Source: an uncultured Candidatus Saccharibacteria bacterium
GTDB lineage: Bacteria; Patescibacteriota; Saccharimonadia; Saccharimonadales; Saccharimonadaceae
Reading direction: 5' to 3'
Assembly: GCA_946804195.1 (NCBI GenBank)
Contig: CAMPEU010000021.1
Location: forward strand, 1 to 38,622
DNA length: 38,622 nucleotides
Both the position numbers and the translations under genes were made by a program. The stretch's first letter is position 1. Every line of letters begins with the position of its first letter. Below, piece by piece: positions 4,095-35,653 of the stretch. The notes beneath the pieces are model-generated. The model was not told the origin of the DNA. It saw only the letters and a program-made list of their open reading frames with translations, and did not search any database.

Positions 4095-4100
4095 ATTATA
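4095..4100 (-). promoter_or_regulatory. -10 element (TATAAT) 6 bases before ATG
   Basis: A perfect TATAAT on the minus strand overlaps the end of the aldolase gene. Transcription would begin at or next to the ATG at 4088, giving a leaderless message. The -35 is weak. Confidence 0.5.
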
Positions 4101-5007
4101 CGACTGCTTTGCCCTCGGAACCAAATGCTTTTATTTTTTCCTCGACGACTTTTTGGACTTCCTTGTAGACGGTAGGCATTAGTTTCACGACAGCAAATTC
4201 ATCAGGATTATCCTTTAGTACCTTCTCGAGTGTATTTCGGAATGCAATGCGCATATCGCTATTAATATTTATCTTGCTAACACCAATCTTTGCCGCTTCT
4301 TCAAAATAGTGCAGGGGCGTACCCGATCCACCATGCAGGCTGATGTGACAATCTAGCTCATCGCGAATGTTTTGTAGTAATTCTAGATCAAGCTGCTTTG
4401 GAACGGGATATTTTCCGTGCAGGTTTCCAACAGCCGCTGCAAATGTATCGATTCCCGTCGATTCACAAAAATACTTAGCGTCATCTGGAGTACTGAACGT
4501 TTTTTTGATTGCCTCGAAATCGATCTTTTCATCATGTAAGTTTGATGAGCCGCCAAAATAATGCGGCTCACTTTCGACGAGCGCACCTGTAAATTTTGCG
4601 TACTCTACAACTTCCTTAGTCTTTTCAATAATCTCTTTTAGACCGGCGTCATGATTTTCTTGACTAATATCAATGTGTATAAATTCAAATCCTGCATCTA
4701 TCGCACGCTTACAATCATCTACCGTCGGGCTGTGATCAAGATTGATATACATTTCGATACCATACTCTTGCTTATAATTATCAACCATGTCCCGAATGTT
4801 CTCTAGGCCAATAGCCTTCACTTCACCACTACTAACTTCAACCAATACGGGAGACCGGAGCTTTTGGGCGGCACGTGCGACTGCAATCAATGTTTCTTGA
4901 TTATCGATATTAAAAGCACCGATAGCAAAACCTTGGCGACGGGCACGCTGATACAAATGCCTTGCTCGCATTGTATTTGTCCTTATATACGGAATTGTTA
5001 AACTCAC
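4096..5007 (-). CDS. fba: class II (zinc-dependent) fructose-bisphosphate aldolase family
   Basis: A 303-residue class II aldolase. Visible residues: INLDHS with Asp91 (catalytic acid) and His92 (zinc), a glutamate in LVESEPHYFGG (145-147), His197 in GNLHGKYP, His225 in SLHGGSG, and KININSD for phosphate binding. These cleave fructose 1,6-bisphosphate (or tagatose, or sedoheptulose bisphosphate) to dihydroxyacetone phosphate and an aldose phosphate. The segment following His92 (FIHIDISQENHDAG) differs from the common MIDGSH version, so exact substrate is open. The start is a GTG supported by GAGGGGG 5 bases upstream; an ATG at 4971 is an alternative. It lies 18 bases after the transketolase C-subunit gene, in the same operon, and links pentose phosphates to triose phosphates. 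Confidence 0.88.
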   Translation of the reverse strand: MSLTIPYIRTNTMRARHLYQRARRQGFAIGAFNIDNQETLIAVARAAQKLRSPVLVEVSSGEVKAIGLENIRDMVDNYKQEYGIEMYINLDHSPTVDDCKRAIDAGFEFIHIDISQENHDAGLKEIIEKTKEVVEYAKFTGALVESEPHYFGGSSNLHDEKIDFEAIKKTFSTPDDAKYFCESTGIDTFAAAVGNLHGKYPVPKQLDLELLQNIRDELDCHISLHGGSGTPLHYFEEAAKIGVSKININSDMRIAFRNTLEKVLKDNPDEFAVVKLMPTVYKEVQKVVEEKIKAFGSEGKAVV

Positions 5008-5025
5008 TATCGCCCCCTCGTTAAA

Positions 5026-6018
5026 TTATCTATGATATTGCGGTGTCGTGTCTACAAAATGCTTGATATCCTTTGCCATTTTATCACCAGTTAACCCAAA
5101 AAGCTCAAGCAATTCATCAGGTGAACCCGATTCACCAAATCTATCATGCACACCAATACGCAGTAATGGAGTTGGTAGTTTCTCGGATAATAATTCTGCG
5201 ATGCCACCACCAAAACCTGCAGCAAACTGCGCTTCTTCCGCCGTAACTACTCGCCCAGTTTTTTGCACACTTGCCAAAATCGTACGGTCGTCCAGGGGCT
5301 TAATAGTCGGTACATGAACGACTTCGGCCTTGATGCCTTGTTCCTCTAAAATCTTTGCCGCGACGAGTAGCTGATATGTCATCGTACCTGTTCCGAGAAG
5401 GCTAACATCACCACCTTCGCGCAATACATATGCTTTGCCAATTTCGAAGGGAGAATCGTCGGTGCTAAAGATCGGTGTCTTTTCGCGAGCCAAACGTAAA
5501 TATGACGGTTTACCATTTTTTGCAATTGCGATAGTCGCTTTTTCGGCCTCAACGCTATCACCAGGTGCAACAACAGTCATGTTTGGCAAGACACGCATCA
5601 GCGCAATGTCTTCGAGCATTTGATGAGTAGCGCCGTCGGGACCGACACTGACACCCGCGTGACTACCAATGATTTTGACCGGCTGATCATTCAAGCAAAT
5701 TGTCGTACGAATTTGTTCCCAATTACGCCCCGGGCTAAACGCAGCATAGCTACTCGTGAACGGGACTTTGCCCGCCCGAGCCATACCACTAGCAACCGTT
5801 ACTAAGTTTTGCTCAGCGACGCCAATCTCGACGAATCTATCCGGAAAGGCTTCTTTAAACTTACTCATTTGAGTGCTATCCGTCAGATCGGCACATAGTG
5901 CAACGACATTCTCATCAATCTCACCAGCGACCTTCAAGCCACGACCAAAACCGGCACGCGTCGGCTCACGCTCGACATCGTCGGCATATATATTACGCTT
6001 TAATGGATAGTGGCTCAT
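5026..6018 (-). CDS. transketolase, C-terminal subunit
   Basis: A 330-residue protein holding the pyrimidine-binding and C-terminal domains of a split transketolase. EIGVAEQN carries the glutamate (Glu69) that activates the thiamine diphosphate ring; GKVPFTSSYAAF and GSHAGVSVGPDGATHQ (active-site His) follow, and the C-terminal domain ends with GVHDRFGESGSPDELL. With its partner subunit it moves two-carbon ketol units between pentose, hexose and triose phosphates. The start overlaps the N-subunit stop by 4 bases (ATGA), with AGGAGA 6 bases upstream, so the two subunits are translated in a coupled way. The split form (about 290 plus 330 residues) is known from archaea and several bacterial groups including CPR. 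Confidence 0.93.
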   Translation of the reverse strand: MSHYPLKRNIYADDVEREPTRAGFGRGLKVAGEIDENVVALCADLTDSTQMSKFKEAFPDRFVEIGVAEQNLVTVASGMARAGKVPFTSSYAAFSPGRNWEQIRTTICLNDQPVKIIGSHAGVSVGPDGATHQMLEDIALMRVLPNMTVVAPGDSVEAEKATIAIAKNGKPSYLRLAREKTPIFSTDDSPFEIGKAYVLREGGDVSLLGTGTMTYQLLVAAKILEEQGIKAEVVHVPTIKPLDDRTILASVQKTGRVVTAEEAQFAAGFGGGIAELLSEKLPTPLLRIGVHDRFGESGSPDELLELFGLTGDKMAKDIKHFVDTTPQYHR

Positions 6019-14076: not shown

Positions 14077-15270
14077 TTATTTGTTACTTTTTTTCGGGGT
14101 TGGAGTGAAATAATCATCTTCAACAACGATCTGCGCATGCCATGCACCAAGTGCTTGACCCAGCGGTAATATATCATGATAACCCATCAAATCAGCTGCA
14201 CGCCGCAACAGCGATGCGGGCCATCCGTATAAACGAATCCAGTGCCATTCGAACGCCGCCCAGCTCTCTCCCACAGGCACTACAACAGGTGGCAAAACTG
14301 CCCTGTATTTTTTCGGTTTCTTTCCGTCTCGACGTCGCTTTATATTCTTTGAAATAAATATCGCATCATGTAGTGCAGTTTGAGCTAGCCCACTAAACGG
14401 TGTTGCGGCGTTATCACCAATGACATATATTCCATCCTTGGTGCGTAATTGTTCATCTACGATAACCTTGCCATTTTTTGCGAGCTCAAAATGATCTGTA
14501 TTTGCCGTAAAGAATGGATTGTTAGCCACGCCAGATGTCCAAATGACAGTGTGACTCTTTAATGGCTTACCGTTAACCATCAGCCCGTCGACACTCGCCG
14601 ATTCAACTTTTTCATTCAAGCGAACAGTAACACCGATCTTTTCTAAGCGTTGCTTTACCTTCGCACTGGTTTTTTCACTCATCTTCGGCAGCAAACGTGG
14701 CATCGCTTCAAGAATTGTTATACGAACTTTACCATGTGGTACTTTGTAATGTTTACATAGTCGCTTAATATATTGTCCCATCGCAGCGGCTAACTCGATA
14801 CCAGTTGGACCGCCGCCAATAATGACATACTGCTTTTCAACCTCGTGCTCCTCGGCAATTGCTTGGTATAGATGATGCTTGAGCTTTTGAATCTCTTCCT
14901 CGGACTTTATGCCATACGCAAATTCGTCCAAGCCTTTAATACCAAAGTATGTCGTCACCGAGCCCAGCGCCAGTACCAGACGATCATAGTGATATACATT
15001 GCCGCCTTTGCTAGCGAGTGACTTGGTTGTTGGATCAACTTCACTAATGCTGTCGATTACGACGTCTACATTGAGCTTGCTAGAAAATATAGTTCCTAAT
15101 GGTACCCACGATTGCAAATGACTATGACCCGTTGCCGTGCCATATAGGGCGGGAAAATACTGAAAATCGGGCTTGTCACTAATGAGTGTAATTTGATTAG
15201 TCTTATCGTGCGACAACTTCAAGGCTGTCTTTACGCCGGCAAAACCGCCGCCAACTATTGTAATATTCAT
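14077..15270 (-). CDS. ndh: type II NADH:quinone oxidoreductase (NDH-2-like)
   Basis: A 397-residue FAD-dependent pyridine nucleotide oxidoreductase of the NDH-2 type. It has FAD-binding GGGFAG at 7-12, an NADH-binding GGGPTGIELA at 152-161, and an FAD-contacting YVIGDNAATP near residue 289. A C-terminal region with aromatic and basic residues (WHWIRLYGWPASLLRRAADL) is suited to membrane attachment, as in NDH-2. It would pass electrons from NADH to quinone without pumping protons. A weak AGGA and a TATGAT 8 bases upstream precede ATG 15270. The neighbouring cyoE and cyoABCD supply the terminal oxidase, which strengthens the NDH-2 call over sulfide:quinone reductase; the CxxC pair expected in the latter is not evident. 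Confidence 0.88.
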   Translation of the reverse strand: MNITIVGGGFAGVKTALKLSHDKTNQITLISDKPDFQYFPALYGTATGHSHLQSWVPLGTIFSSKLNVDVVIDSISEVDPTTKSLASKGGNVYHYDRLVLALGSVTTYFGIKGLDEFAYGIKSEEEIQKLKHHLYQAIAEEHEVEKQYVIIGGGPTGIELAAAMGQYIKRLCKHYKVPHGKVRITILEAMPRLLPKMSEKTSAKVKQRLEKIGVTVRLNEKVESASVDGLMVNGKPLKSHTVIWTSGVANNPFFTANTDHFELAKNGKVIVDEQLRTKDGIYVIGDNAATPFSGLAQTALHDAIFISKNIKRRRDGKKPKKYRAVLPPVVVPVGESWAAFEWHWIRLYGWPASLLRRAADLMGYHDILPLGQALGAWHAQIVVEDDYFTPTPKKSNK

Positions 15271-15298
15271 TACATCCTATCATAAGCAATATTGTCGC

Positions 15299-16162
15299 TT
15301 ACTTCAAGTAACCACCTATACCTACTGCAAAAAGCGTCGCCAGCAACACATATATCGATGACATGAACATCCGTCGAGCCCATTGTTCATCAGCCTCATC
15401 AATATGGACAATTCCGTTTACCGTCCAGTACAATCCCGCTACAACCATGACAATCAAATAGGGATTATATGCCGCACCGATAAAAGCCAATGTAGGTGTA
15501 AGTACCAAAAAGACCAATACCCAAAACATCATCTGACGACGCGTACTCGTGTTGCCGTATTTCACTGACCAAACCGGTAAACCGGCCTTTTTATAATCGT
15601 CCCGACGAAAAATCGAAATTGCATAAAAATGCGGTAATTGCCAAACCATTAACATGACAAACAAAACAACGGCAACAATATCGAGCTGACCCATAACGGC
15701 CGTATAGCCCGCAACTGGCGGCAATGCTCCACATACCCCGCCAATTATTGTGCTTAATGGCGTTTTGCGTTTTGCAAGACCATACACAACCACATACCAA
15801 AAATACGCCAATATGCCCAAGCTAGCTGTTAAGACATTCGTCCATATGGCGAGGGAACCAAACCCGACAACACCCAGCACGACCGCATAGATAATTGCAT
15901 TTTGAATACTAATATTACCAGCTGCGACTTCCCGACCGCGTGTACGTTTCATGCGAGCATCAATATCACGATCAATGATATTGTTCACGACACAAGCTGA
16001 TGCGATAACAAACGCTATACCGAACGTAATCCCGATAAAAATCCGTAGCGAAAAGCCTGCGTAACTCGAAGCCAAAAAAAATCCTGCAACAGCCGCTAGC
16101 GTATTGCTCAGCGTAATACCAGGCTTCATCAGCTGTAAATATGATTTCGTTCGTCGTTCCAT
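15299..16162 (-). CDS. cyoE: protoheme IX farnesyltransferase (heme O synthase)
   Basis: A 287-residue UbiA-family membrane enzyme with about nine helices. The prenyl-diphosphate motif NNIIDRDIDARMKRTRGR (Asp-rich, residues about 61-78), the YGLAKRKTPLSTIIGGVCGA segment, and WQLPHFYAISIFRRDDYKKA are all typical of CyoE/CtaB rather than other UbiA members. It adds a farnesyl group to heme B to make heme O for the bo3 oxidase encoded nearby. A GTG at 16165 is directly upstream of the ATG chosen. A TAGAAT (16171-16176) lies 8 bases before the ATG. No heme biosynthesis gene is in the window, so heme B may have to be imported or taken from a host. Confidence 0.93.
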   Translation of the reverse strand: MERRTKSYLQLMKPGITLSNTLAAVAGFFLASSYAGFSLRIFIGITFGIAFVIASACVVNNIIDRDIDARMKRTRGREVAAGNISIQNAIIYAVVLGVVGFGSLAIWTNVLTASLGILAYFWYVVVYGLAKRKTPLSTIIGGVCGALPPVAGYTAVMGQLDIVAVVLFVMLMVWQLPHFYAISIFRRDDYKKAGLPVWSVKYGNTSTRRQMMFWVLVFLVLTPTLAFIGAAYNPYLIVMVVAGLYWTVNGIVHIDEADEQWARRMFMSSIYVLLATLFAVGIGGYLK

Positions 16163-16232
16163 CACCGTCTATTCTATGTCAGACTTCCGTACAAACAAAA
16201 TGGCAGCCCTCTTCGATTCGCATACGAGCAAC

Positions 16233-16763
16233 CTAATCTTCTCGACGATGCCGACCACCAGAACGACCCGTCACCTCTTTTAACGCATGTATCATCGCAA
16301 GTAATCCGCGCTGTTCTGTTCGATCGATAGGCACAGTAGAATAAAGTTGTTGCCTCTTGTCTACGTCGACACTTTTATGGGCTACAATTAACCGATTTTC
16401 ATCCGGGTAATTAATCTTTACCCTGTAATAACTTTCAACATCTTTACCGTCAATATCACGATATTCCATCCGAATAGCAAGGAGTGCCTTTTCGGCATCC
16501 TCGACATTATACGGATTACGTCCGTCCAGTCTCATCTCTACATATTCGGGCGCATCGATTGCGTACGATTCCAGGATAGAACCGACAAGCGCCAGTTCAT
16601 CCTGCGACAGCTTGAAGAACATTGATCGTATATCTAATGATGGATATTCTTGCTCGATATGGCGGATTGTAAATAACTGATCAGTATCGTCAAACAATTG
16701 AATAGCAAACTTCTCATATGCAGAGAGACTGTCATAATTATCCGGTTGATTCTCGGCAGACAT
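16233..16763 (-). CDS. hypothetical acidic soluble protein
   Basis: A 176-residue protein that I do not recognise. It has no membrane helix or signal peptide. The N-terminal half is acidic (DNYDSLSAYEKFAIQLFDDT); a middle segment reads LSQDELALVGSILES, and a basic tail SGGRHRRED closes it. It lies between the cyoABCD operon and cyoE, in the same orientation. It has its own -10 (TATAGT, 16770-16775) 6 bases before the ATG, which is also the only start with such support. The position suggests but does not show a link to the oxidase. Confidence 0.7.
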   Translation of the reverse strand: MSAENQPDNYDSLSAYEKFAIQLFDDTDQLFTIRHIEQEYPSLDIRSMFFKLSQDELALVGSILESYAIDAPEYVEMRLDGRNPYNVEDAEKALLAIRMEYRDIDGKDVESYYRVKINYPDENRLIVAHKSVDVDKRQQLYSTVPIDRTEQRGLLAMIHALKEVTGRSGGRHRRED

Positions 16764-16769
16764 GAGTAT

Positions 16770-16775
16770 ACTATA
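16770..16775 (-). promoter_or_regulatory. -10 element (TATAGT) 6 bases before ATG
   Basis: TATAGT on the minus strand ends 6 bases before ATG 16763. There is no ribosome-binding site, so this is another predicted leaderless start. Confidence 0.45.
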
Positions 16776-16813
16776 CCACTTTTATGGTAGTCTGGAAAAA
16801 GTATACAGGTTCC

Positions 16814-17404
16814 TTATTCTTCGAAAAGTTGTTTGAATTTTATGTCTATCTGCTCGACGTAACGTCTATATGCCAGATGTGCAATTCCTAGACCTGCCTT
16901 GAAATGGGCACTATGATTTGCCTCGGTAAACATCGCATCACTAATACTGTCAACAAAGTTGCGCAGCGGGCGCGGATAATCCTTTGGACCAGTAGCGGGA
17001 CTGAACGCGCCTCGGGCATACGCATTCCGACCAATAGACTCAATCCGATCGGCATACTCGCTATACCCCCAATATTCATCAGTGAAAACATCGTCAATGT
17101 ACGGAGCAAGTGCGCTATCCGTACCACCACCGAGCCGCCGATTATTAACCATCATTCCAACTGCAATGCCGTATTCAAATTGTTCGCTACTATATAGCAA
17201 CGGCAAATCGCTCGTCGAACTTGCCTGCAACGCGTGATGAGTTAAATGATCAATGACATGCTGCATTGAACGAGTTTCTAGTTGCTCGCACCATACGTTC
17301 TCGACGTAAGCTAACTCCGATCCCGCGATTGATACCTCTTCGCTCAGGTCAACAATAACACGACGTAAATCAATAACGTTACCGCCAAATTGCGATGTAC
17401 TCAT
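16814..17404 (-). CDS. hypothetical soluble protein
   Basis: A 196-residue cytoplasmic protein of unknown function. It is rich in Asp, Glu, Tyr and Ala, and contains GIAVGMMVNNRRLGGGTDSA and DEYWGYSEYADRIESIGRNA. No known fold signature or membrane segment is seen. It begins 66 bases after the cyoD stop on the same strand and ends 50 bases before the next unknown gene, so the two unknowns form a small insert between the oxidase subunits and cyoE. A weak CATTAT hexamer lies 6 bases before the ATG. A second ATG, out of frame by 4 bases, lies just upstream. Confidence 0.7.
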   Translation of the reverse strand: MSTSQFGGNVIDLRRVIVDLSEEVSIAGSELAYVENVWCEQLETRSMQHVIDHLTHHALQASSTSDLPLLYSSEQFEYGIAVGMMVNNRRLGGGTDSALAPYIDDVFTDEYWGYSEYADRIESIGRNAYARGAFSPATGPKDYPRPLRNFVDSISDAMFTEANHSAHFKAGLGIAHLAYRRYVEQIDIKFKQLFEE

Positions 17405-17470
17405 TCATTGATAATGACAGAAATTGCGTTAATTACAAATTATATCGTAAAAACTAAGCATGCAAGAAAT

Positions 17471-17812
17471 CTAGAAGCCCTTGTCGTATTCAGTCAACAT
17501 AAATTTCGTTTTTTCAGCCGGTGAAAAATGCATCATACGTTCATTCAAATTATTCATAATCCATATTGATCCTACAACAACAATTATCAGTATTAACGCC
17601 ATGAACCAGAATGATAGTTGCTTGAGTCTTGGCCCCACTTCGTCTCCCAAGTGCAAAAAATACATTAACTGAACCGCTAGCTGAGTAATTGCCAGAATAC
17701 CCAAAATGACAAGTATCAGGGGATGAGCCGCGTTGTCGATGACCAAGAAATACGCAACCAATGTTAATGCAAGTGACAGTGCGAATCCCATGATATACCT
17801 TTGTATCGTCAT
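17471..17812 (-). CDS. cyoD: cytochrome bo3 quinol oxidase subunit IV
   Basis: A 113-residue small membrane protein with three predicted helices: GFALSLALTLVAYFLV, LILVILGILAITQLAVQLMY, and FWFMALILIIVVVGSIWIM. Its length and FLHLGDE segment match CyoD/QoxD. It helps assemble the CuB site of subunit I. The longer open frame reaches 17878, but ATG 17812 is chosen because it overlaps the cyoC TGA by 4 bases (ATGA), matching the coupled layout of the operon. Confidence 0.92.
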   Translation of the reverse strand: MTIQRYIMGFALSLALTLVAYFLVIDNAAHPLILVILGILAITQLAVQLMYFLHLGDEVGPRLKQLSFWFMALILIIVVVGSIWIMNNLNERMMHFSPAEKTKFMLTEYDKGF

Positions 17813-18402
17813 CTTACAACTCCCATCATATACACAACCGTAAAGACAAAAATCCAAATGAGATCTAGGAAGTGCCAAAACAAACCAAACAGAGTTAATT
17901 GCCTAGTCAATTTGCTGGTGATTCCGCGTCGCCAAATCGTATACGCGAGAACACTAAGCCATAGTAAACCAATAAATACATGTAAACCATGCGTACCGAC
18001 AAGCGTAAAGAACGCTGACAAAAATGCACTCGTCTGAGGACCATGCCCCTCACTAATGAGTTTCGTAAATTCACTGACTTCAATAAAAAGGAAAGTTGCC
18101 CCTAGGACAAAAGTCACGCCTAGTCCGATGAGTACTTGGCGGATGTTCTTTTGAGTCATTGCGATAAGCGCCAAACCGCATGCGAAACTACTCGTCAACA
18201 AGATCAATGTTTCGGCCAAAACGAGTGGCATTTCATATATATCCCTACCGGCAGGGCCACCCGCAGTTGCATCACGTAAAACAGCAAATGTTGCGAATAG
18301 TGTCGCGAACAGCAAACAATCCGTCATGAGATACAGCCAAAAGCCGACAGATGTCTTTGATAGCAATCGTTTCTCTTCTAAGGCTTCCTCTTGTACACTC
18401 AT
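17809..18402 (-). CDS. cyoC: cytochrome bo3 quinol oxidase subunit III
   Basis: A 197-residue membrane protein with five helices, as in E. coli CyoC. Conserved pieces include GFWLYLMTDCLLFATLFATF, the Glu in PLVLAETLILLTSSF, and GTHGLHVFIGLLWL followed by FGLFWHFLDLIWIFVF. Subunit III stabilises subunit I and supports proton uptake. An upstream start at 18420 is possible, but ATG 18402 overlaps the cyoB TGA by 4 bases and fits the family N-terminus. Confidence 0.95.
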   Translation of the reverse strand: MSVQEEALEEKRLLSKTSVGFWLYLMTDCLLFATLFATFAVLRDATAGGPAGRDIYEMPLVLAETLILLTSSFACGLALIAMTQKNIRQVLIGLGVTFVLGATFLFIEVSEFTKLISEGHGPQTSAFLSAFFTLVGTHGLHVFIGLLWLSVLAYTIWRRGITSKLTRQLTLFGLFWHFLDLIWIFVFTVVYMMGVVR

Positions 18403-20384
18403 GCCCGTCGCGTCCTCCACAGCTTCTTTTCAATTGCGGCAACTTGTTCTGCGGTAATTGTTCGCTCTACGTCTTCTCGCATACCTGCACAGATAGCGAG
18501 TACGATCGTCACTACCAACGCGACAGCAGCAAGCCACCACATATACCAGATCACCGCAAATGCTCCGACAAATGCAACAGCCGCAATCCCCGGACCAAAC
18601 CCGCTGTTTTTTGGTATGCGAATATCACTAAACTTAGTAGCCTCTTCACGGACATGCGAAGACTTCATCGCCCAAAAAGCATCACGCTGTTCGACGGCAT
18701 CCAATGCTGCAAAGTTATATTCAGCAATTGGCGTCGATGTAGACCACTCTAGCGTACGACCATCCCACGGATCAGTTCCGACCCTCAGCTCATCGCGTTT
18801 CCAAATACTATAGGCCAACTGCAAAACCTGAAAGAAAACACCTAGCAAAATAATCATCACGCCAACACCCGCCACCACAAAAAGGCCCTGCCACCCCAGA
18901 GATGCATCGTAATGATCCAAGCGACGAGCCGCGCCCATCAAGCCAAGGATATAGAGCGGACCAAATGCCAAAACAAATCCGACTAGCCAACTCCAAAATG
19001 CCGCTACGCCCAAACCTTCGTGTAATCGAAAACCGGTCAACTTTGGCCACCAATACGCCAATGCGGCGAATGCCCCGAACACGACGCCACCGATAATCAT
19101 ATTATGAAAATGCGCGACCAGGAACAGGCTATTGTGTACCTGAAAGTCAATACCGGGTACCGCCAGCAACACGCCCGTTACGCCACCGATAGTGAATGTC
19201 GTGATGAATCCCATAAACCATAACATCGGAGTCTTGAAGCTAATACGTCCTCGAAACATCGTAAATAACCAGTTAAATACCTTAACGCCCGTTGGAATTG
19301 CAATTATCATCGTCATGATTCCAAAAAATGCGTTGACATTTGCACCCGCACCCATAGTAAAGAAATGATGCAGCCAAACAGTAAATGACAGTACGGCAAT
19401 CGCCATAAGCGCCCAAACCATACTGGTATACCCAAATAAACGTTTACGGCTAAAGACCGGCACGATTTCCGAAAACACACCAAATGCAGGCAAGGCTAGT
19501 ATGTAGACTTCAGGGTGTCCCCATGCCCATATCAAATTAACGTACATCATTGGATTGCCTCCTAGGTCACTCGTAAAGAAGTGTGTCTCTATCGTACGAT
19601 CGAGCGTTAGCATACCCAACGTTGCTGTTAGTATCGGGAAGGCGAAAACGACCAACAACATACTACCGATAACCGACCACACAAAAATCGGCATCTTCAT
19701 AGGCGTCATACCTTTGCGTCGCATTGTAAATATCGTTACCAAGAAATTAACGCCGGACAATAAACTACCAATCCCCGCTATCTGCAGTGCCCATATCCAA
19801 TAATCAACCCCCGTCCCTGGACTATACTCTAACCCACTCAACGGAGGATATGCCAACCAACCTGCCGTCGAAAATTCGCCAACCGCCAGGCTAACGTTCA
19901 TCAGTGCCATGCCAGCAAAGAACAGCCAAAAACTAATTGAATTGAGGAGTGGGAATGCTACATCTCGCGCACCAATTTGCAACGGCACGATTAGGTTGAT
20001 GAGACCGAAAATAATGCCCATCGCAACAAAAAATATCATTATCGTACCGTGTGCGGAAAAGACCTGTTGAAACATATCCGCATCTATTGGCCCAGCTCCA
20101 TTTGTTGCAAACAATGCCTGTTGCACGCGCATCATCACTACATCTGCCAAGCCACGTAGCAACATAATTCCCGCAACAACGAGATACATCACTCCGATTT
20201 TTTTAGGATCAAGCGATGTTATCCACGTCTTCCACAACCAACTCCATCGTCGAGTAACGGTCAACAAACCAACAATCAATAATACGCCAAATAAACCGCC
20301 CAATGCACCGAGCACTGTAACAATATTATCAGGAAGCGCGTCTAGACTTAATCGCCCTAGCAGGAAACCCCAATCAATGATCAT
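18399..20384 (-). CDS. cyoB: cytochrome bo3-type quinol oxidase subunit I
   Basis: A 661-residue heme-copper oxidase subunit I, very close in length and sequence to E. coli CyoB. Heme and copper ligands are all visible: His112 in FSAHGTIMIFF (low-spin heme), GHPEVY (CuB His with cross-linked Tyr, D-channel Glu), WLHHFFTMGAG (CuB), and HNSLFLVAHFHN (high-spin heme O and low-spin heme). The K-channel Lys is in IPTGVKVFNW, and the D-channel Asp is in GARDVAFP. It reduces oxygen to water with electrons from quinol and pumps protons. In the quinol site, Arg77, Asp81 and Gln107 are kept, but Met104 stands where E. coli has His98. The start overlaps cyoA by 11 bases. Confidence 0.97.
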   Translation of the reverse strand: MIIDWGFLLGRLSLDALPDNIVTVLGALGGLFGVLLIVGLLTVTRRWSWLWKTWITSLDPKKIGVMYLVVAGIMLLRGLADVVMMRVQQALFATNGAGPIDADMFQQVFSAHGTIMIFFVAMGIIFGLINLIVPLQIGARDVAFPLLNSISFWLFFAGMALMNVSLAVGEFSTAGWLAYPPLSGLEYSPGTGVDYWIWALQIAGIGSLLSGVNFLVTIFTMRRKGMTPMKMPIFVWSVIGSMLLVVFAFPILTATLGMLTLDRTIETHFFTSDLGGNPMMYVNLIWAWGHPEVYILALPAFGVFSEIVPVFSRKRLFGYTSMVWALMAIAVLSFTVWLHHFFTMGAGANVNAFFGIMTMIIAIPTGVKVFNWLFTMFRGRISFKTPMLWFMGFITTFTIGGVTGVLLAVPGIDFQVHNSLFLVAHFHNMIIGGVVFGAFAALAYWWPKLTGFRLHEGLGVAAFWSWLVGFVLAFGPLYILGLMGAARRLDHYDASLGWQGLFVVAGVGVMIILLGVFFQVLQLAYSIWKRDELRVGTDPWDGRTLEWSTSTPIAEYNFAALDAVEQRDAFWAMKSSHVREEATKFSDIRIPKNSGFGPGIAAVAFVGAFAVIWYMWWLAAVALVVTIVLAICAGMREDVERTITAEQVAAIEKKLWRTRRA

Positions 20385-21303
20385 GATTATCGTACCCTTC
20401 TTTTATCCCAGCTTCATGATGCATATACTTATTCATTACTTTAGCATACAAATTTACGTCATGCAGATGAAAATACTGTGGAACATTTGCACTACTTGGC
20501 ACCGCTAATTTCTGATATGAACCCTCATCCATATGGCTATGTTCATCGCCTCCACGAACAGACGCAGTCCACTTTTCGAACTCATCACGAGTATCTAGCG
20601 TTTTTACCATGAAATTCATATCAGCATAACCTTTGCCGCTAATATTGGTATTGCTTCCACGATATTCGCCAGGATTATCAGCAACCAAACTCAAGCGAGC
20701 CGACATACCGTTCATCGCATATATTTGCGAGCCTAAGCTTGGTATCCAAAATGCACTCATCGGACCATCGCTTGTAATATGAAATTCAATCGGAACACCA
20801 ACTGGTATTTTAAGTACGTTGACCGATGCAATATCATAGTCGGGATACAAAAACAGCCACTTCCACTGCATCGCAACCACTTGTACAGTAATAGCCTTTT
20901 CATCTGACTCGAGCGACTTATACGGATCTAGTTGATGCGTACTCACCCATGTAACAACACCCAGGATTGCAATAATAACAATCGGTACGCCCCACCACAA
21001 ACCCTCAAGCCATTTATTGCTATCGTGGTCCGGCGTATATTTAGCCCTGATATTACCCTCTCGGTATCGCCACGCGAATGCACCTATCATAATGAAAACA
21101 GGTACGACCACTACCGCGCTCAAACCAAGCGTAAACAACAATAAATCTTTTTCCGCAGAGGCAATAGCGCCTTGTGGATTTAACACGGCGATGTCCGTGC
21201 CTTGTAACATAATCATGATGGATACTATAGAAATCACCGTAACCAGCAGTAGACTCGCTGCTATGAGCCATGGCCACCTAGATTTTTTCTTCCTCGCCGT
21301 CAT
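20374..21303 (-). CDS. cyoA: cytochrome bo3-type quinol oxidase subunit II
   Basis: A 309-residue subunit II with two N-terminal helices and a cupredoxin-like exported domain. FWIPSLGSQIYAMNGM is the family signature, and the CuA cysteines are absent, as in quinol oxidases. E. coli CyoA is a lipoprotein, but no lipobox cysteine is present here; the first helix (WPWLIAASLLLVTVISIVSI) would act as an uncleaved anchor. The C-terminus is His-rich (GYDNHDH). The open frame reaches 21369, but ATG 21303 is preferred: a TAGAAT (21311-21316) lies 7 bases upstream and the basic MTARKKKSR start precedes the helix directly. It heads cyoABCD. Confidence 0.95.
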   Translation of the reverse strand: MTARKKKSRWPWLIAASLLLVTVISIVSIMIMLQGTDIAVLNPQGAIASAEKDLLLFTLGLSAVVVVPVFIMIGAFAWRYREGNIRAKYTPDHDSNKWLEGLWWGVPIVIIAILGVVTWVSTHQLDPYKSLESDEKAITVQVVAMQWKWLFLYPDYDIASVNVLKIPVGVPIEFHITSDGPMSAFWIPSLGSQIYAMNGMSARLSLVADNPGEYRGSNTNISGKGYADMNFMVKTLDTRDEFEKWTASVRGGDEHSHMDEGSYQKLAVPSSANVPQYFHLHDVNLYAKVMNKYMHHEAGIKEGYDNHDH

Positions 21304-21310
21304 GCTTATG

Positions 21311-21316
21311 ATTCTA
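21311..21316 (-). promoter_or_regulatory. -10 element of cyoABCD
   Basis: TAGAAT on the minus strand ends 7 bases before ATG 21303. No ribosome-binding site is present. It shares a 110-base divergent region with the + strand gene at 21414. Confidence 0.4.
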
Positions 21317-21400
21317 TGATAGACCCTTAAGGCGTCCATGCCAACCCCACGTCCGCCTATCTTAGTCACTGATAACTATGCTGCTAAACGAGAATTCATA

Positions 21401-21406
21401 TACAAT
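21401..21406 (+). promoter_or_regulatory. -10 element of the gene at 21414
   Basis: TACAAT ends 7 bases before ATG 21414, with no ribosome-binding site. It supports 21414 over the open-frame start at 21378. Confidence 0.4.
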
Positions 21407-21413
21407 ACAAGAT

Positions 21414-22106
21414 ATGAAAAATTTTGGCGGTATACCCATAGATCAATTTAATTGGAAAAATGACGATGGAAGCAAATTCGATCCAGACGAGCTATATCCA
21501 GTCATAGATCCAGCCTCAAACCGTCTGTACGGTATCCGCAAGGAAAATGAATCAGAGGTTGTCGTTGTGCAGTCATATAATCCAAGCGGGAACGGCAACG
21601 AAGCGGTAGCTTTTGCACGCATGATGTGGGGAAAGCCCGAGGAATGGGAATACCCAAATATCAATAATCGTCATGTTACATGCATAGGAATACCCCATTG
21701 TGCTACATGCATCAAAAATAACACAGAGTACATCACCGACAGGGCAACAAATTGGAGAGTTCAAATCACCGATCCATTGTCTACTGACCTTATAGCCCGT
21801 CGCCTCATCATGCCCGGTATGGTCGAAGAAACAATCACCGGCCCCCACGCCATAGCAGACATCGCTCCAAAAATTGACTTCTTATATGGCTCGGTTCACG
21901 ATAGGCGTAAGGAGATCGTTCGAAAAGCAATCGCAACCTTTGGTCGACTAATTGATTTCTCTACAATGCGAACCGATGATCCTTTTCAAATGGAATTTAC
22001 AGATATGCAAGTGAACGAATCTGCTTCGCAACAATCCACGGATCATTATCAACGACCAGAAATCCACATAGTAGCGCAGATCAATCGACTATTCGGAAGT
22101 AGATAA
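21414..22106 (+). CDS. hypothetical protein divergent from cyoABCD
   Basis: A 230-residue soluble protein that I do not recognise. It starts MKNFGGIPIDQFNWKNDDG and contains a short cysteine cluster, CIGIPHCATCIKNN, near residues 86-99, which could bind a metal. The rest is rich in Asp, Arg and Ile, with RRLIMPGMVEETITGPHAI in the middle. No membrane helix is seen. It is transcribed away from cyoA across a 110-base shared region. After its stop, 113 bases (22107-22219) hold only the promoter and ribosome-binding site of the next gene. Confidence 0.65.
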   Translation: MKNFGGIPIDQFNWKNDDGSKFDPDELYPVIDPASNRLYGIRKENESEVVVVQSYNPSGNGNEAVAFARMMWGKPEEWEYPNINNRHVTCIGIPHCATCIKNNTEYITDRATNWRVQITDPLSTDLIARRLIMPGMVEETITGPHAIADIAPKIDFLYGSVHDRRKEIVRKAIATFGRLIDFSTMRTDDPFQMEFTDMQVNESASQQSTDHYQRPEIHIVAQINRLFGSR

Positions 22107-22187
22107 AGACGCTGCATAAGTCACACCATAGCTAGAATGGATTACTATACTCTGTACTAAAGTTGCATATATTGCTGAATAATGTGA

Positions 22188-22213
22188 TAAAATACCTTCA
22201 ATAGCACAAGGAG
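22188..22213 (+). promoter_or_regulatory. promoter and ribosome-binding site of the M16 peptidase operon
   Basis: An extended -10 (TGATAAAAT, 22185-22193) is followed by AAGGAG at 22208-22213. The AAGGAG directly abuts ATG 22214 but lies 6 bases before GTG 22220, so the GTG is the better start. Confidence 0.5.
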
Positions 22214-22219
22214 ATGTCA

Positions 22220-23497
22220 GTGTCGCTAGAGACAACAACCACACCGGAAGGCCTGCGTATCTATGTAGATACTATACCTACGGCAGAAACGGCAAAGATT
22301 AATGCCTTTGTTGGCGTCGGAAGCGTGCACGAGCCAGATAAGCTAGCCGGCATTTCACACGCGCTGGAACATTGTGTTCATATCAGTACAAACTTATTTC
22401 CCAATGATCAAGCTTTGGATGAATTCACTGGTATCAACTCCCTTACGGCCAACGCAGACACCTTTTATAATAGAACGTGCTACTACGCTACTGGGCCATA
22501 CGTTGAACCAAATATGCGACGACTGGGTCAGATACTATTTCAACCGACATTCGACCCGACATACATACCCAATGAAATGTCGACAGTTACTCGCGAGGGA
22601 CTAGAACGACGAGATGACGTATACCAACTACACTACATCGCTTCTGATTATGCACTTTTCGGTAAGCCATATGGACGTAATGTAGGTGGTTATGCTGACA
22701 AAATAAACTTCACGCCCAACCAAATGAAAAAATTCTACAAAAAGCACTACACTATGTCCAATATGGCTATAGTTGCCGTCGGTAATATTAGGCTAGAAGA
22801 AGTTTTGCAATATACCGAGAGATATTTTGATCACACACAAACCAAAAAACTACACGTAACACCACCATTGCCGGAAGGAATGGACGTAACAACAACTGGT
22901 TTACTAGGAGCAGGCTCAAGTGCCGTAGTGAGAATTGCGTCACCAATGGATAAATCATTTGTCGATAAATACATAGATAATAAAATCGCTTATAAGGCAG
23001 CTATCCAAGCAATGAATGCATTATGCTATCAACGTTTTCGCACCGATACAGGCATCGCATATGACAGTGAAGTATCTCTAAATGATATCAATGACCTGAA
23101 TGCTTGGTCGATAGTCGGCGATGCTAATGTTGGCGCCGAAAAGATAAAGACAACGGAGTCTCTCTTCAGGGATATCTTTAGTCGTACAAGTAATACTTAT
23201 AGCGAAGCAGCCATAGCATCTGCGGTTGGAAGTACGCGGTCCGATATTTTATGTAGCATGGATTCTGTCGAGGATAGAACCGAGCTATATATACAAAATC
23301 TGGAACAGCAAACTGAGCCAAGAGACCTACGACAAGTAGCCCAGTCGGCGCACAACCTCCAACACGATAGCGTCAGAACCGCAATCGATGAAATTGTTGA
23401 ATATATGGGGAACCACCCCCCGATAACCCATATCACCGGACCCAAAAAAGCAATGAAATCAGTAGATAGAATGATAGGGGTGCACGAGATAGCGTAG
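22220..23497 (+). CDS. M16-family zinc peptidase
   Basis: A 425-residue M16 metallopeptidase (the mitochondrial-processing-peptidase/PqqL/YmxG group). The inverted zinc motif HxxEH is present as HALEH near residue 54 (from 22220), and a glutamate in TREGLERRDD lies about 75 residues downstream, where the third zinc ligand is expected. GKPYGRNVGGY and MAIVAVGNI are further family landmarks. There is no signal peptide, so it is probably cytoplasmic. M16 enzymes degrade or trim peptides and often act in pairs with an inactive partner; no partner is seen here. GTG 22220 is chosen by the AAGGAG spacing. It leads a + strand run with a DUF3445 protein and a ROK kinase. Confidence 0.85.
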   Translation: MSLETTTTPEGLRIYVDTIPTAETAKINAFVGVGSVHEPDKLAGISHALEHCVHISTNLFPNDQALDEFTGINSLTANADTFYNRTCYYATGPYVEPNMRRLGQILFQPTFDPTYIPNEMSTVTREGLERRDDVYQLHYIASDYALFGKPYGRNVGGYADKINFTPNQMKKFYKKHYTMSNMAIVAVGNIRLEEVLQYTERYFDHTQTKKLHVTPPLPEGMDVTTTGLLGAGSSAVVRIASPMDKSFVDKYIDNKIAYKAAIQAMNALCYQRFRTDTGIAYDSEVSLNDINDLNAWSIVGDANVGAEKIKTTESLFRDIFSRTSNTYSEAAIASAVGSTRSDILCSMDSVEDRTELYIQNLEQQTEPRDLRQVAQSAHNLQHDSVRTAIDEIVEYMGNHPPITHITGPKKAMKSVDRMIGVHEIA

Positions 23498-23529
23498 TGA
23501 CATGCGTTTGCACTCGCAACTAATCCACC

Positions 23530-24615
23530 ATGAAACATTCATCAGAACAATCCGCTTGCCCAATGTATTCGACCCAACAACACCGGGGCGATGTAGTCAT
23601 GTCTACCAATTGGGAATACCTGCAGGCTATGAAGATGAACGAGTTCGCTCCCTCTCCCAACATATCCCCCGTAACACATCCTCAGCGGAAGCTTGATGAA
23701 AAACGCTTTGCACCATGGTTTTGGCCCGATAACGAATTGGCCGACGCACTCCACATCCGTCAGGCGGCCTTTCTGAAAAATCAAAAGAGAGTTCTTCATA
23801 CGGCCAATAATAATCCCGAAGTGCAGGCTGCTTCACAACAACTATTAAACTTACAGGCTCATTATTTGAGTGAACACTTCCCAGAAAAATACACGATCGA
23901 GCAAAGTCGCACATTAGGTAAAGTAATCATCAACAGAGCAAGCGAAGATAAAATTGATACATTTAGCATCGACGCCGAAAAAAGTGACTGGCATCCGCTC
24001 GCAATCAGCGGAATGTTAGGCCAGGAAGATATTTGCATTGTAAAAAGAAAGAAGAGCGGACGACAAGTACTCGTTGCCGGTTTTTTAGCGACTCCAACGA
24101 ATTGGAATCTGTCAGATTTCATGAAGGCCGACATGGATACTATTCACCAGCACGTTAGTGGGTATGACGAACCGGTCAGTGAAACCCGAAAATACAAACT
24201 AAAGGACACTGTTGATAAAGTACTCGAATCACTGCGAGAATATCCAGACGGTGTTATTTGTCGCAACAATCAATTCATTGAATATGCAGACTCACTTGCC
24301 CTAGAGCCTAGCGAAGCAAAGAAGATAAAGGCCCATAAAATTGCAAAGAATCTTGGAAGTCGTATATTTCTCCGGACTGAACGAGAAACTCTTGCTCGCT
24401 TACCAAAACCGTACGATAACTTCACGATTTTCACCATCAAACCCCACGTGTTTCACATGGCAGACGTCCGACGATTACGCGGTGATGATTTTGCACGAGC
24501 GGTGCTCACTAATTCCGTTCTCGAATCAGCCTTGAAAATGACAGAGAGTGAATCATTTAATTTCACAAATCCTCTGCAGCAATACTTAACGTCAACCGAA
24601 GAGTCGAAGCAATAA
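23530..24615 (+). CDS. DUF3445 protein, heme-dependent oxidative N-demethylase-like
   Basis: A 361-residue protein with the layout of the DUF3445 family: a KRFAPWFWPDNE opening near residue 58, EDICIVKRKKSGRQVLVAG with TNW and IHQHVSGYDEPV in the centre, and the family signature FLRTERETLARLPK followed by FTIFTIKPHV near the C-terminus. The best-studied member is the alpha subunit of a heme-dependent oxidative N-demethylase, a PAS-like heme enzyme acting on dimethylamine. The redox partner subunits of that enzyme are not encoded here. The start is uncertain: ATG 23530 has no ribosome-binding site, and ATG 23599 is an alternative. It lies 32 bases after the M16 peptidase stop. Heme binding is inferred from the family only. 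Confidence 0.75.
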   Translation: MKHSSEQSACPMYSTQQHRGDVVMSTNWEYLQAMKMNEFAPSPNISPVTHPQRKLDEKRFAPWFWPDNELADALHIRQAAFLKNQKRVLHTANNNPEVQAASQQLLNLQAHYLSEHFPEKYTIEQSRTLGKVIINRASEDKIDTFSIDAEKSDWHPLAISGMLGQEDICIVKRKKSGRQVLVAGFLATPTNWNLSDFMKADMDTIHQHVSGYDEPVSETRKYKLKDTVDKVLESLREYPDGVICRNNQFIEYADSLALEPSEAKKIKAHKIAKNLGSRIFLRTERETLARLPKPYDNFTIFTIKPHVFHMADVRRLRGDDFARAVLTNSVLESALKMTESESFNFTNPLQQYLTSTEESKQ

Positions 24616-24618
24616 TTC

Positions 24619-25431
24619 ATGTATATATCTGTCGACATGGGAGGAACAAATACGAGAATTACAGGCACGACTGATGTAATACATGGCCAGTCGTTCGACA
24701 AACCTATCAAACGCCAAAATACCGGTGATTACGAAAATGATTTACAATTTATTATCAATACATCAAAAAAGATAGCAAAGCGTGGCGGCGCTACAATCAA
24801 AGCTGTCGGCATAGGTACACCCGGTACACCCAACCCTGATCGAACCAAAATTGCATCAGCTATCAACTTACCTCACTGGAATCAACAACCACTCGTTCAG
24901 CCCATTACTAATGCACTCAACTGCCCAGTTTACTATGATAATGATGCCGTCACAGCGGGCCTGAGCGAAGCATACTATGGCACCTGGCAACCGTCCGACT
25001 TTCATTATTTAATTTGGGGTACGGGGATTGGCGGATCCGAAATTAAATTTGATGCAACAGGCGAGGTAAATTATGTAGCAAAACTACATTGGAAAAATCA
25101 CTTTCGTGATTGGACTTTTGAGTGTGGAGGAAAAGCGCTCGATGAAATATATGGACGACAAACAGAAAAACCCTGGGATGATATTTTTGCCAAATTCAGC
25201 GGTCACCTATTGAACTATGTTGCAACATATCAACCGCCCTCCATTGTATTCGGAGGCGGGCTAGCCGAACGATTCGATAATCAAATCGAGATACTGAAGC
25301 GACAAGCGGGCGTCGACATTAACATTAGTAAATTTGGTGGTGATAGTGGAATCAAGGGTGGATTTGGGCTAATCCGCTTTGCTCAAAGCCATAACTTACC
25401 ATCTGTCGATTTAACCGATACGGAGGACTAG
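24619..25431 (+). CDS. ROK-family sugar kinase-like protein
   Basis: A 270-residue ROK/actin-fold protein. SVDMGGTNTRI is the ATP phosphate-binding loop, GIGTPGTPNPDR and VYYDNDAVTAGLSEA carry the sugar-binding Asn-Asp, WGTGIGGS is the second phosphate loop, and IVFGGGLAER closes the site. ROK members phosphorylate glucose, fructose, N-acetyl sugars or use polyphosphate. The usual zinc-binding CxCGxxGCxE motif is missing; the matching region reads FECGGKALDEIYG with one cysteine, so substrate is open. It starts 3 bases after the DUF3445 gene and so is co-transcribed with it. Confidence 0.82.
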   Translation: MYISVDMGGTNTRITGTTDVIHGQSFDKPIKRQNTGDYENDLQFIINTSKKIAKRGGATIKAVGIGTPGTPNPDRTKIASAINLPHWNQQPLVQPITNALNCPVYYDNDAVTAGLSEAYYGTWQPSDFHYLIWGTGIGGSEIKFDATGEVNYVAKLHWKNHFRDWTFECGGKALDEIYGRQTEKPWDDIFAKFSGHLLNYVATYQPPSIVFGGGLAERFDNQIEILKRQAGVDINISKFGGDSGIKGGFGLIRFAQSHNLPSVDLTDTED

Positions 25432-25439
25432 TGGCAACC

Positions 25440-26153
25440 TCAATCGTCTTGAGATTCGGGAATCACAACATCATCAACCTGTTCAATTTTTGCTGAAAAA
25501 TAGTTTACAAACGGTGTCTTTCCCAGGCTCATCCCCTTCTCTTTTGCTTCGTTCAAATTGATCATGCCTGTAAAATCCAACGTATCTTCCTCAATACATG
25601 ACGCAAACGACTGAGCATAATATAGTGCTATACCCGCGCGTAAATCCTGACGCTGAGCATCCGTCAACGGCTGTAATTTTTCAGCCATCACCTCGTGCAA
25701 GCGCTCTAGTTTAATATAAACGTTCGGAAATGTTTCTATGCCCCTCCAAACATTCTGTGCAAAATAATGTGCCAAAAATAATTCTTCGTCCGGGTCCCGC
25801 ATCCTCTTCATTTGATCACTAAAATCCGTATTCGAGCTGGGCAGTAAATGTGTATGCCTATTTAATACCACCGCCCCCATGTATCCGCAGACTGTTGCCG
25901 ACCTCGGAACACGTTCTTCTCGCGCGCGGTCCCAGTCCCTACATAGTAATATGCTTGCATTATGTGTTAGGTATCTCCCGGCAAGGCCCGTAACAGCAAC
26001 TGGCGCCGAATTCATACTAAGAGTTGCAATGAAGTGCTCCCTATCTAGACCATCAACGGACTGAAACCACTCGTTGACCGCATTTTCCACATCCGGATTC
26101 ACTACGTCCCTGTAGGGAAACGATTCCAGCTTTTTGCGTTCGTTTTGGCTCAT
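25440..26153 (-). CDS. hypothetical protein
   Basis: A 237-residue soluble protein of unknown function. It begins MSQNERKKLESFPYRDVVNP and includes RYLTHNASILLCRDWDRARE, LNRHTHLLPSSNTDFSDQ and an acidic end VIPESQDD. No membrane helix, signal peptide or known motif is seen. The frame is open from a TTG at 26177, but ATG 26153 is preferred; a TACACT lies 10 bases upstream and no ribosome-binding site is present. It is convergent with the ROK gene, with 8 bases between the stops, and upstream of it lies pheT on the same strand. Confidence 0.65.
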   Translation of the reverse strand: MSQNERKKLESFPYRDVVNPDVENAVNEWFQSVDGLDREHFIATLSMNSAPVAVTGLAGRYLTHNASILLCRDWDRAREERVPRSATVCGYMGAVVLNRHTHLLPSSNTDFSDQMKRMRDPDEELFLAHYFAQNVWRGIETFPNVYIKLERLHEVMAEKLQPLTDAQRQDLRAGIALYYAQSFASCIEEDTLDFTGMINLNEAKEKGMSLGKTPFVNYFSAKIEQVDDVVIPESQDD

Positions 26154-26211
26154 GTTGACTTCTAGTGTACCACTCAATTACACACATGTATTCAAATTAG
26201 TAAACCTAAAT

Positions 26212-33960: not shown

Positions 33961-34461
33961 CTACAGAGCCCAAGCCGCCCATGTTCCACCGGTGGAGTGT
34001 CCAAGTGATGCGGTACTGCCACTCCACACGATAGCTACGTCCATTATGTCGCACGTGCCCTCACCCGAATAACCCGCAGGTCCCACGCCCGCAGATACCA
34101 CGCCATCAACTATTTTAAAATAATTATTACTTATCGATCTTGCTTGTACGGCATACCTATCATTTGCACTATCGTAACAATAATATAGATTATTTTGATC
34201 TCGATAGGCACCCTTCGTGATATGTATATCTGTACTAGCCGTCGGCGGAAGAGGATATCTACCCGTACTCACTCTCTCGATTTCAAGTTTCTTGGCCATA
34301 TTCGCCAAATCACTTTGCACCGCGGCATCATTAGCCCTAGCGGAGATACCGGTATATGCAACGGTAACGATTGCAGCTAGAATGCCGATGACAACAACGA
34401 CAATCAGGAGTTCAACGATAGTAAAACCCTCTACTCTATTCCATGATGTTTTACTCTGCAT
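33961..34461 (-). CDS. type IV pilin-like protein (pilin 1)
   Basis: A 166-residue pilin-like protein. A short basic leader ending in EG is followed by FTIVELLIVVVVIGIL, the class III signal with Glu at position +5, and then the N-terminal alpha helix with ISARANDAAVQSDL. The C-terminal domain holds YYCYDSANDRY and GEGTCDIMD, a likely disulfide pair. Such proteins are processed by a prepilin peptidase and assembled into pili or act as minor pilins. ATG 34467 abuts an AGAGG, so ATG 34461 (6 bases from that site) is the better start. It begins 15 bases after the pilin 2 stop, in one operon. Confidence 0.85.
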   Translation of the reverse strand: MQSKTSWNRVEGFTIVELLIVVVVIGILAAIVTVAYTGISARANDAAVQSDLANMAKKLEIERVSTGRYPLPPTASTDIHITKGAYRDQNNLYYCYDSANDRYAVQARSISNNYFKIVDGVVSAGVGPAGYSGEGTCDIMDVAIVWSGSTASLGHSTGGTWAAWAL

Positions 34462-34476
34462 CGACATCCTCTTCCC

Positions 34477-35094
34477 CTATGCCCCACTCGGCGGTGTTTC
34501 GTTGCAACTTGTAATACTAGTGTAGGTAATCGATCGTTTGTAATAATCGTTGTTCGTAATATAAGTCGCACCACCCCCTATGGCTACATGATTACACAAA
34601 TAGTACGGGGCGGACATCCAGCTCACCTCTCGATATCCCAAGCGTCGATATCCTACGTCTGTCGAGGGTGATGGCAATACGTTCCATGCACTCAATAGGT
34701 AATCGGTTCCGTTACTCAAATACACATAACAACTGCTCCCATTACCGACACCTTTTAGTGATTGGTCGCTCTGGGGCAGACTCCCCGCGAGCCCTGGAAC
34801 CCACTGGGCAGTCGCCGTTACAGTAGCCCCGGTATACGGACAGTTCGCATCGACGAGAGGGGTCGCACCACCTCCCATAGTAGGTGATGTAACGGGGTAC
34901 TGACCATTAGTAACCTGGTAGATTTGTATTTGCTTATTAACCTGCTCCATGTCACTATATGCTCTCGCCACTTTTGCTCGTGATGAAATACCGGTATACG
35001 CGACGGTTACAATCGCAGCCAGAATGCCGATAACGACAACAACTATCAGTAGTTCAACAATAGTAAAACCCGTTGTTTTGCGTTCGGCCCACAT
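34477..35094 (-). CDS. type IV pilin-like protein (pilin 2)
   Basis: A 205-residue pilin-like protein with the leader MWAERKTTG and the cleavage context G/FTIVELLIVVVVIG, identical in protein to pilins 1 and 3 over about 27 residues. The following helix continues ISSRAKVARAYSDMEQVN. The outer domain has several cysteines (CPYTG, SSCYVYL, YYLCNHV, SCNETP), enough for two disulfides. ATG 35094 has no ribosome-binding site; TGGTAAACT (35101-35109) ends 6 bases before it. It is the first gene of a two-gene unit with pilin 1. Confidence 0.85.
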   Translation of the reverse strand: MWAERKTTGFTIVELLIVVVVIGILAAIVTVAYTGISSRAKVARAYSDMEQVNKQIQIYQVTNGQYPVTSPTMGGGATPLVDANCPYTGATVTATAQWVPGLAGSLPQSDQSLKGVGNGSSCYVYLSNGTDYLLSAWNVLPSPSTDVGYRRLGYREVSWMSAPYYLCNHVAIGGGATYITNNDYYKRSITYTSITSCNETPPSGA

Positions 35095-35100
35095 ACCCCT

Positions 35101-35109
35101 AGTTTACCA
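35101..35109 (-). promoter_or_regulatory. extended -10 of pilin 2
   Basis: TGGTAAACT ends 6 bases before ATG 35094. The same TAAACT with N6 spacing precedes pilin 3, so the two promoters are likely paralogous like the genes. Confidence 0.55.
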
Positions 35110-35128
35110 CAAGCATTTATTACTAATC

Positions 35129-35653
35129 TTACGAACAATCACCGGATTGAGGCAACGCACGGAATTGTGCTATCGCGACACCGCTACCCGTAAAATAATA
35201 CATCCTATCCGTAGCCGCACAGTTCCCGCCCTCGCCTTCATTCTCATCCAGTACATAAGGGTTACCTCTTGCATCACCTTCTCGTAGCGAAGTGAGGTCT
35301 ATCCCGGTGACGGCACCGATTTTGATCAAGTTATCATAATACCGCGTCCAGCAAACGTGTGATTTTGCGAGATCCTTCGGCTCGGTAGCTGATGTATTAT
35401 TAGTTGCACTTATACAGTACCCGGCAGAATAAGACGATCCTGTAATCGAACGTAGGTTTTTACTACTAGATTGCTGCGCAGCAGTAATCGCTTTGTAGTA
35501 CGTATTCATATCAGAGTCTCGTTTAGCGTCATTTGCACGCGTCGTAACACCGGTATATGCCACGGTGACAATAGCGGCGAGGATGCCGATGACGACAACA
35601 ACAATCAAAAGCTCAACAATGGTAAAACCGGAGTTTTTGCGTGTGATTCGCAT
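35129..35653 (-). CDS. type IV pilin-like protein (pilin 3)
   Basis: A 174-residue pilin-like protein. The leader MRITRKNSG is followed by the shared G/FTIVELLIVVVVIG segment and VTTRANDAKRDSDMNTYYKA. Its outer domain reads YCISATNN, KSHVCWTRYY, GGNCAATDRMYYF and ends PQSGDCS, so two disulfides are possible. ATG 35653 has no ribosome-binding site, and TGCTAAACT (35660-35668) ends 6 bases before it. It is the first of three tandem pilin genes; separate promoters for pilins 3 and 2 would allow different expression. No pilus assembly genes lie in the window. Confidence 0.85.
   Translation of the reverse strand: MRITRKNSGFTIVELLIVVVVIGILAAIVTVAYTGVTTRANDAKRDSDMNTYYKAITAAQQSSSKNLRSITGSSYSAGYCISATNNTSATEPKDLAKSHVCWTRYYDNLIKIGAVTGIDLTSLREGDARGNPYVLDENEGEGGNCAATDRMYYFTGSGVAIAQFRALPQSGDCS

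Follow-up and report, generated by a model that had tools for sequence, protein, structure and literature searches.

A predicted accessory operon of M16 peptidase, HODM-like and ROK-like genes restricted to one genus of Saccharibacteria

The analyzed window of 38,622 nucleotides represents contig C21 of a Candidatus Saccharibacteria genome, which comprises 989 kb (~1 Mb) and is 99.8% complete. Between the genes cyoA and pheT, three consecutive open reading frames on the same strand encode an M16 peptidase, an HODM-like protein of the family PF11927 (HODM_asu-like, formerly DUF3445) and a ROK-like protein. The features of this region are the following, with L011, L012 and L013 denoting the corresponding loci of the related genomes G252, G135 and G247:

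20374-21369, minus strand: cyoA, opening the divergent quinol oxidase operon and marking the left edge of the insertion site
21378-22106, plus strand: 242-residue protein separating cyoA from the trio, matching no Pfam family and lacking a homologue at this junction in L011 and L012
22214-23497, plus strand: predicted M16B zinc metallopeptidase, 427 residues (Pfam; HxxEH at residues 49-53, E128), orthologues in L011, L012 and L013
23498-23529, plus strand: short element in the M16-HODM spacer, CATGCGTTTGCA in the window
23530-24615, plus strand: HODM-like protein (haem oxidative N-demethylase alpha-subunit-like), 361 residues, PF11927, RLP at residues 290-292, invariant Cys10-Pro11
24619-25431, plus strand: ROK-like protein, 270 residues, keeping DMGGTNTR, N108-D109 and GTGIGG but devoid of the substrate loop (GE(I)GH / SEGG) and of the zinc motif with its Cys residues
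25440-26177, minus strand: 245-residue protein following the trio, matching no Pfam family and lacking a homologue at this junction in L011 and L012
26212-28656, minus strand: pheT, running towards the trio and marking the right edge of the insertion site

The Pfam calls for the trio are all above the curated cut-offs. Open reading frames and families agree with the initial annotation, which had described a one-strand trio with gaps of 32 bases (M16-HODM) and 3 bases (HODM-ROK) flanked by unknown proteins; only its start at 22220 has to be corrected, since this position lies six bases inside the first frame. On visual inspection, none of the three proteins shows an apparent signal peptide. Elsewhere in the window (33961-35653, minus strand), three consecutive genes encode proteins with near-identical type IV pilin-like N-termini (GFTIVELLIVVVVIGILAAIVTVAYTG).

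Each trio protein was used to search a sample of ten genomes of the genus. The whole trio is found in the same order in the window genome (G000), in G252 and in G135. Identities to the window proteins amount to 66% (HODM), 65% (M16) and 57% (ROK) in G252 and, over the aligned part, to 59%, 47% and 57% in G135, and the gaps between HODM and ROK are 3, 1 and 0 bases in the three full carriers. In a fourth species (G247; L010, L013), M16 is followed by HODM on a contig of 3934 bases that stops inside the 3' end of the HODM gene. G253 contains a lone HODM gene (46% identity), located on a different contig from cyo and preceded by 440 bases without any M16 frame. An HODM match is absent from G223, G248, G249, G250 and G251, and G223 lacks M16, HODM and ROK together. 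Within the genus, trio-type M16 and HODM occur together in the same four genomes, with the lone HODM of G253 as the one exception. Among the three full carriers, pN is 0.21-0.35 while pS, at 0.72-0.84, is saturated; each gene of the trio is therefore under purifying selection. Given that all genes are intact in two more species at a pN far below the saturated pS, the trio represents more than chance open reading frames.

The spacer between M16 and HODM also contains a shared short element. In their own spacers, three relatives carry [TC]ATGCTTGC[AG] or GTGCTTGCG as a TATGCTTGCA-like element (L011 8828-8920, L012 13360-13409 and L013 2829-2879). The pair score of the element is 52 compared with a maximum of 48 over 200 shuffles, and the motif is not in excess elsewhere in the window. 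The element could act as a promoter or a regulatory site, or simply reflect common descent.

In all three full carriers the trio is situated between pheT and cyoA, convergent to the former and divergent from the latter. In G223, G248, G249, G250, G251 and G253, pheT and cyoA are direct neighbours on one strand, separated by a short spacer at most; that of G223 can be read, on the opposite strand, as a small membrane-like protein. The immediate neighbours of the trio differ in each carrier species. G252 has no extra flanking genes, G135 carries a 331-residue gene on one side and a 140-residue gene together with an RNase_T exonuclease on the other, and the 242- and 245-residue proteins of the window, which have no homologue at the site in L011 or L012, are therefore placed outside the conserved unit. 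Accordingly, the pheT/cyoA junction is a gene-turnover hotspot in which the trio stayed whole. Across the subclade, the junction (window 21370-26211; L011, L012, L070) holds different genes in different species. In a pheT tree, G000, G252, G223 and G135 form one clade (100/100), within which the relative order of G223 and G135 is left unresolved, so that both a loss in G223 and a later gain of the trio are possible. Neither a tRNA that would mark an integration site in the window nor an Rfam match between 20000 and 30000 was found. Recent transfer was considered on base composition and rejected, as the GC content of the trio (0.44) gives no signal against that of the window (0.45).

Background synteny around the site is also well conserved, and conserved order alone is therefore weak evidence of shared function. 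One joining event followed by ordinary synteny could give the same picture, which makes it about equally likely to the pathway preferred below that three unrelated genes landed once at the hotspot and have been co-inherited with separate functions. This nearest rival agrees with the genus-only distribution, which requires a single joining event, with the different unknown genes that the junction holds species by species, and with the occurrence of each component without the others: HODM in G253, M16 proteins of the same subfamily away from any HODM in G248, G151 and on contig C1 of the window genome (G000:C1), and a ROK-like protein in G185. It accounts less readily for the replacement of the flanks around an intact trio in three species with saturated synonymous divergence, for the HODM-ROK spacing held at 0-3 bases, and for the joint absence of all three genes from G223.

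The location next to the respiratory genes offers a further interpretation. Quinol oxidase subunits, UbiA/CyoE-like and NDH-2-like genes lie together in the window (14077-21369), and all three complete trios adjoin such a divergent cyo operon. In combination with the invariant N-terminal Cys-Pro, this would be consistent with an accessory of the quinol oxidase, in which the HODM-like protein, as a PAS-type haem protein, would serve as a sensor or store of haem or O2 and, together with M16, adjust the neighbouring cyo respiratory chain. However, cyoB is present in 125 of the 247 genomes of the order, nearly all of them without HODM, six members of the genus combine cyo with a trio-free site, and in G253 HODM and cyo are on separate contigs. 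An accessory role of this kind thus seems unlikely. A specific causal link between the trio and cyo was rejected, given that half of the order has cyo.

Beyond the genus, the initial annotation had suggested a survey across Patescibacteria for any two of the three genes. Such pairing was found within the genus. Of the 247 genomes of the order, two contain PF11927, and a profile search of 380 phylum genomes likewise detected it in two; in both cases these are the window genome and G135. Among the matches listed from searches of the order, no M16 gene lay close to a ROK gene outside the genus. Conservation of the trio is thus confined to one genus among the genomes sampled. Since the trio is conserved outside this genome, in three species in all and as an M16-HODM pair in a fourth, the proposal of a candidate system, which depended on such pairing, stands. 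One scan of genome contigs for relatives outside the phylum returned only the genus relative Candidatus Saccharibacteria HKST-UBA63 (L010), and a plasmid search yielded one distant HODM of Indioceanicola (28% identity) in an unannotated stretch. Searches of phages and viral contigs yielded no such relatives. A defence or phage origin was rejected, as PADLOC defence models matched neither the trio nor the two flanking proteins of the window and PHROGs did not match the trio. A search for papers on an M16/ROK operon in Patescibacteria found nothing; we know of no pathway that joins M16, HODM-like and ROK-like activities, nor, to our knowledge, has the combination of these families been described.

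The first protein of the trio matches Peptidase_M16 (PF00675; 52.6 bits, residues 20-128) and M16_C (PF05193; 55.8 bits, residues 165-337), both above the cut-off. Its zinc site consists of H49-A-L-E52-H53 and E128, located 75 residues past H53, in line with peptidase family M16, which is defined by HxxEH and a third ligand E 74-76 residues downstream. Because H49, E52, H53 and E128 are invariant across four orthologues, the protein is expected to be an active zinc peptidase, and by appearance it is cytosolic. Identity is 47-65% to the orthologues of the genus and 33% to the paralogue G000:C1 of the same genome, which keeps HxxEH and looks active. Like the M16B peptidases MPP-beta, YmfF/YmfH and PqqF, the trio protein displays a chain of about 430 residues, HxxEH with the downstream E, M16 and M16_C domains and an RFRxDTGxxY motif; unlike PqqF, YmfH and YmfF, it scores far under their equivalog cut-offs (40.9 bits against the PqqF model, cut-off 320). 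In G151, a related M16 gene (L056 7416-8687) lies between aldolase-like and transketolase-like genes, and the equivalent cluster of the window (4096-6018) contains no M16.

PqqF-type M16 peptidases act in peptide-maturation clusters. Together with the weak similarity to the PqqF model, this precedent would allow for a RiPP-like cluster in which M16 serves as leader peptidase and HODM as modifying oxygenase. However, a precursor gene would not fit inside the operon of G252, which offers 51 bases before M16 and 93 bases between M16 and HODM, or inside that of the window, and an exporter is absent beside the trio. A peptide-maturation cluster is thus very unlikely.

The HODM-like protein matches PF11927 with 118.4 bits (cut-off 25) over most of its length, and the copy of G253 reaches 146.7 bits. 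R290-L291-P292, corresponding to the RLP motif named for the HODM alpha-subunit family (PMC5809485), is invariant in five HODM-like proteins. Unlike HODM/Dmm, these proteins bear a conserved N-terminal extension of about 55 residues with an invariant Cys10-Pro11. Searches for solved relatives by sequence and by profile gave chance matches only, and a structure model built from two sequences had a mean pLDDT of 32.8. By analogy with the family, haem binding may be inferred. Enzymes of the HODM type are haem enzymes taking methyl groups off amines, as exemplified by HODM / DmmABC with DmmD in R. pomeroyi and P. mendocina, and the reductase of Dmm contains a Fer2 domain. In the whole genome that carries the window this ferredoxin domain was found 0 times, compared with its presence in 12 of 14 control genomes. 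Dmm requires three subunits, none of which is dispensable for activity. Its operon usually includes the GcvT-domain protein DmmD, which accompanied the dmm genes in every case among the screened marine bacteria (PMC5520151). Here, the partners are M16 and the ROK-like protein, with no Dmm reductase, small or GcvT subunit beside the HODM-like gene. Despite the PF11927 match and the RLP signature shared with DmmABC, a classical dimethylamine monooxygenase for methylamine nitrogen is highly improbable, because these subunits are missing beside the gene and the genome has no Fer2 domain.

The third protein matches PF00480 with 68.7 bits in its N-terminal half only. DxGGT, the ND pair with the catalytic Asp and GTGIG (GTGMG in G135) are found in all three trio ROK proteins, which share these motifs, a length of about 270 residues and the C-terminal GGGLA motif with ROK sugar kinases such as the order-wide Saccharibacteria ROK gene and polyphosphate glucokinase. 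Unlike in those kinases, the E/H loop is about five residues shorter and variable, and the zinc motif CxCGxxGC is absent. The E that binds sugar and the H/Cys residues that bind metal belong to this loop, whose E(x)xH site is not retained and reads GEVNY, GGVEH and GKVSY in the three proteins, whereas the order-wide gene mostly keeps the loop E. The label ROK kinase given by the initial annotation is thus borne out for the nucleotide and catalytic motifs but not for the sugar-binding loop. With this loop lost, a sugar substrate is not supported; the protein may be a kinase acting on a different substrate, or no kinase at all. Their nearest outside relative, encoded by a solo gene of G185, joins the trio ROK proteins in a separate clade (support 100/100). 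This relative (L081 8605-9405) is located beside a trpC-like gene and is also devoid of the sugar-binding loop.

What the genus holds is a real, genus-restricted predicted accessory operon of known families in unfamiliar combination. It may handle modified peptides, amines or sugars, as the initial annotation had suggested. With a probability of roughly 0.3, our preferred reading from the sequence features is a clade-specific accessory operon whose products, the M16, HODM-like and ROK-like proteins, would catalyze successive cytosolic salvage or detoxification steps. An ancestor of one Saccharibacteria subclade would have acquired the trio at the pheT/cyoA junction, where purifying selection then kept it, the three proteins acting in turn as a small pathway. 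M16 would cut imported or damaged peptides. From the released amine or amino acid, the HODM-like haem protein would then oxidatively strip an N-alkyl group with O2, receiving electrons from a reductase other than a Fer2 protein, and the ROK-like protein would finally phosphorylate the product, probably not an ordinary hexose. The haem, like that of the adjacent quinol oxidase, would come from scavenging, which has been proposed for another member of the Saccharibacteria with the same oxidase (PMC6031116). Gene order, conservation, site and motifs are observed features, while the order of the steps is a tentative proposal. The HODM of G253 without M16 counts against the preferred pathway, as does the fact that one evolutionary origin of the trio suffices. 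It is rather unlikely, furthermore, that the operon represents a new pathway in the specific sense of a standalone haem N-dealkylase that dispenses with the known Dmm reductase subunits, is coupled to M16 and a ROK-like kinase with a non-hexose substrate and processes N-alkylated peptides or amino acids from the host bacterium.

Saccharibacteria have small genomes in which most biosynthesis is missing. The retention of a three-enzyme module with an O2- and haem-dependent enzyme would therefore suggest that these bacteria draw an unusual nutrient, or a product of damage, from the host or the surroundings. If the preferred reading is true, a PF11927 protein would be placed in a genomic context outside methylamine use, and the ROK family would gain a branch with a changed substrate.
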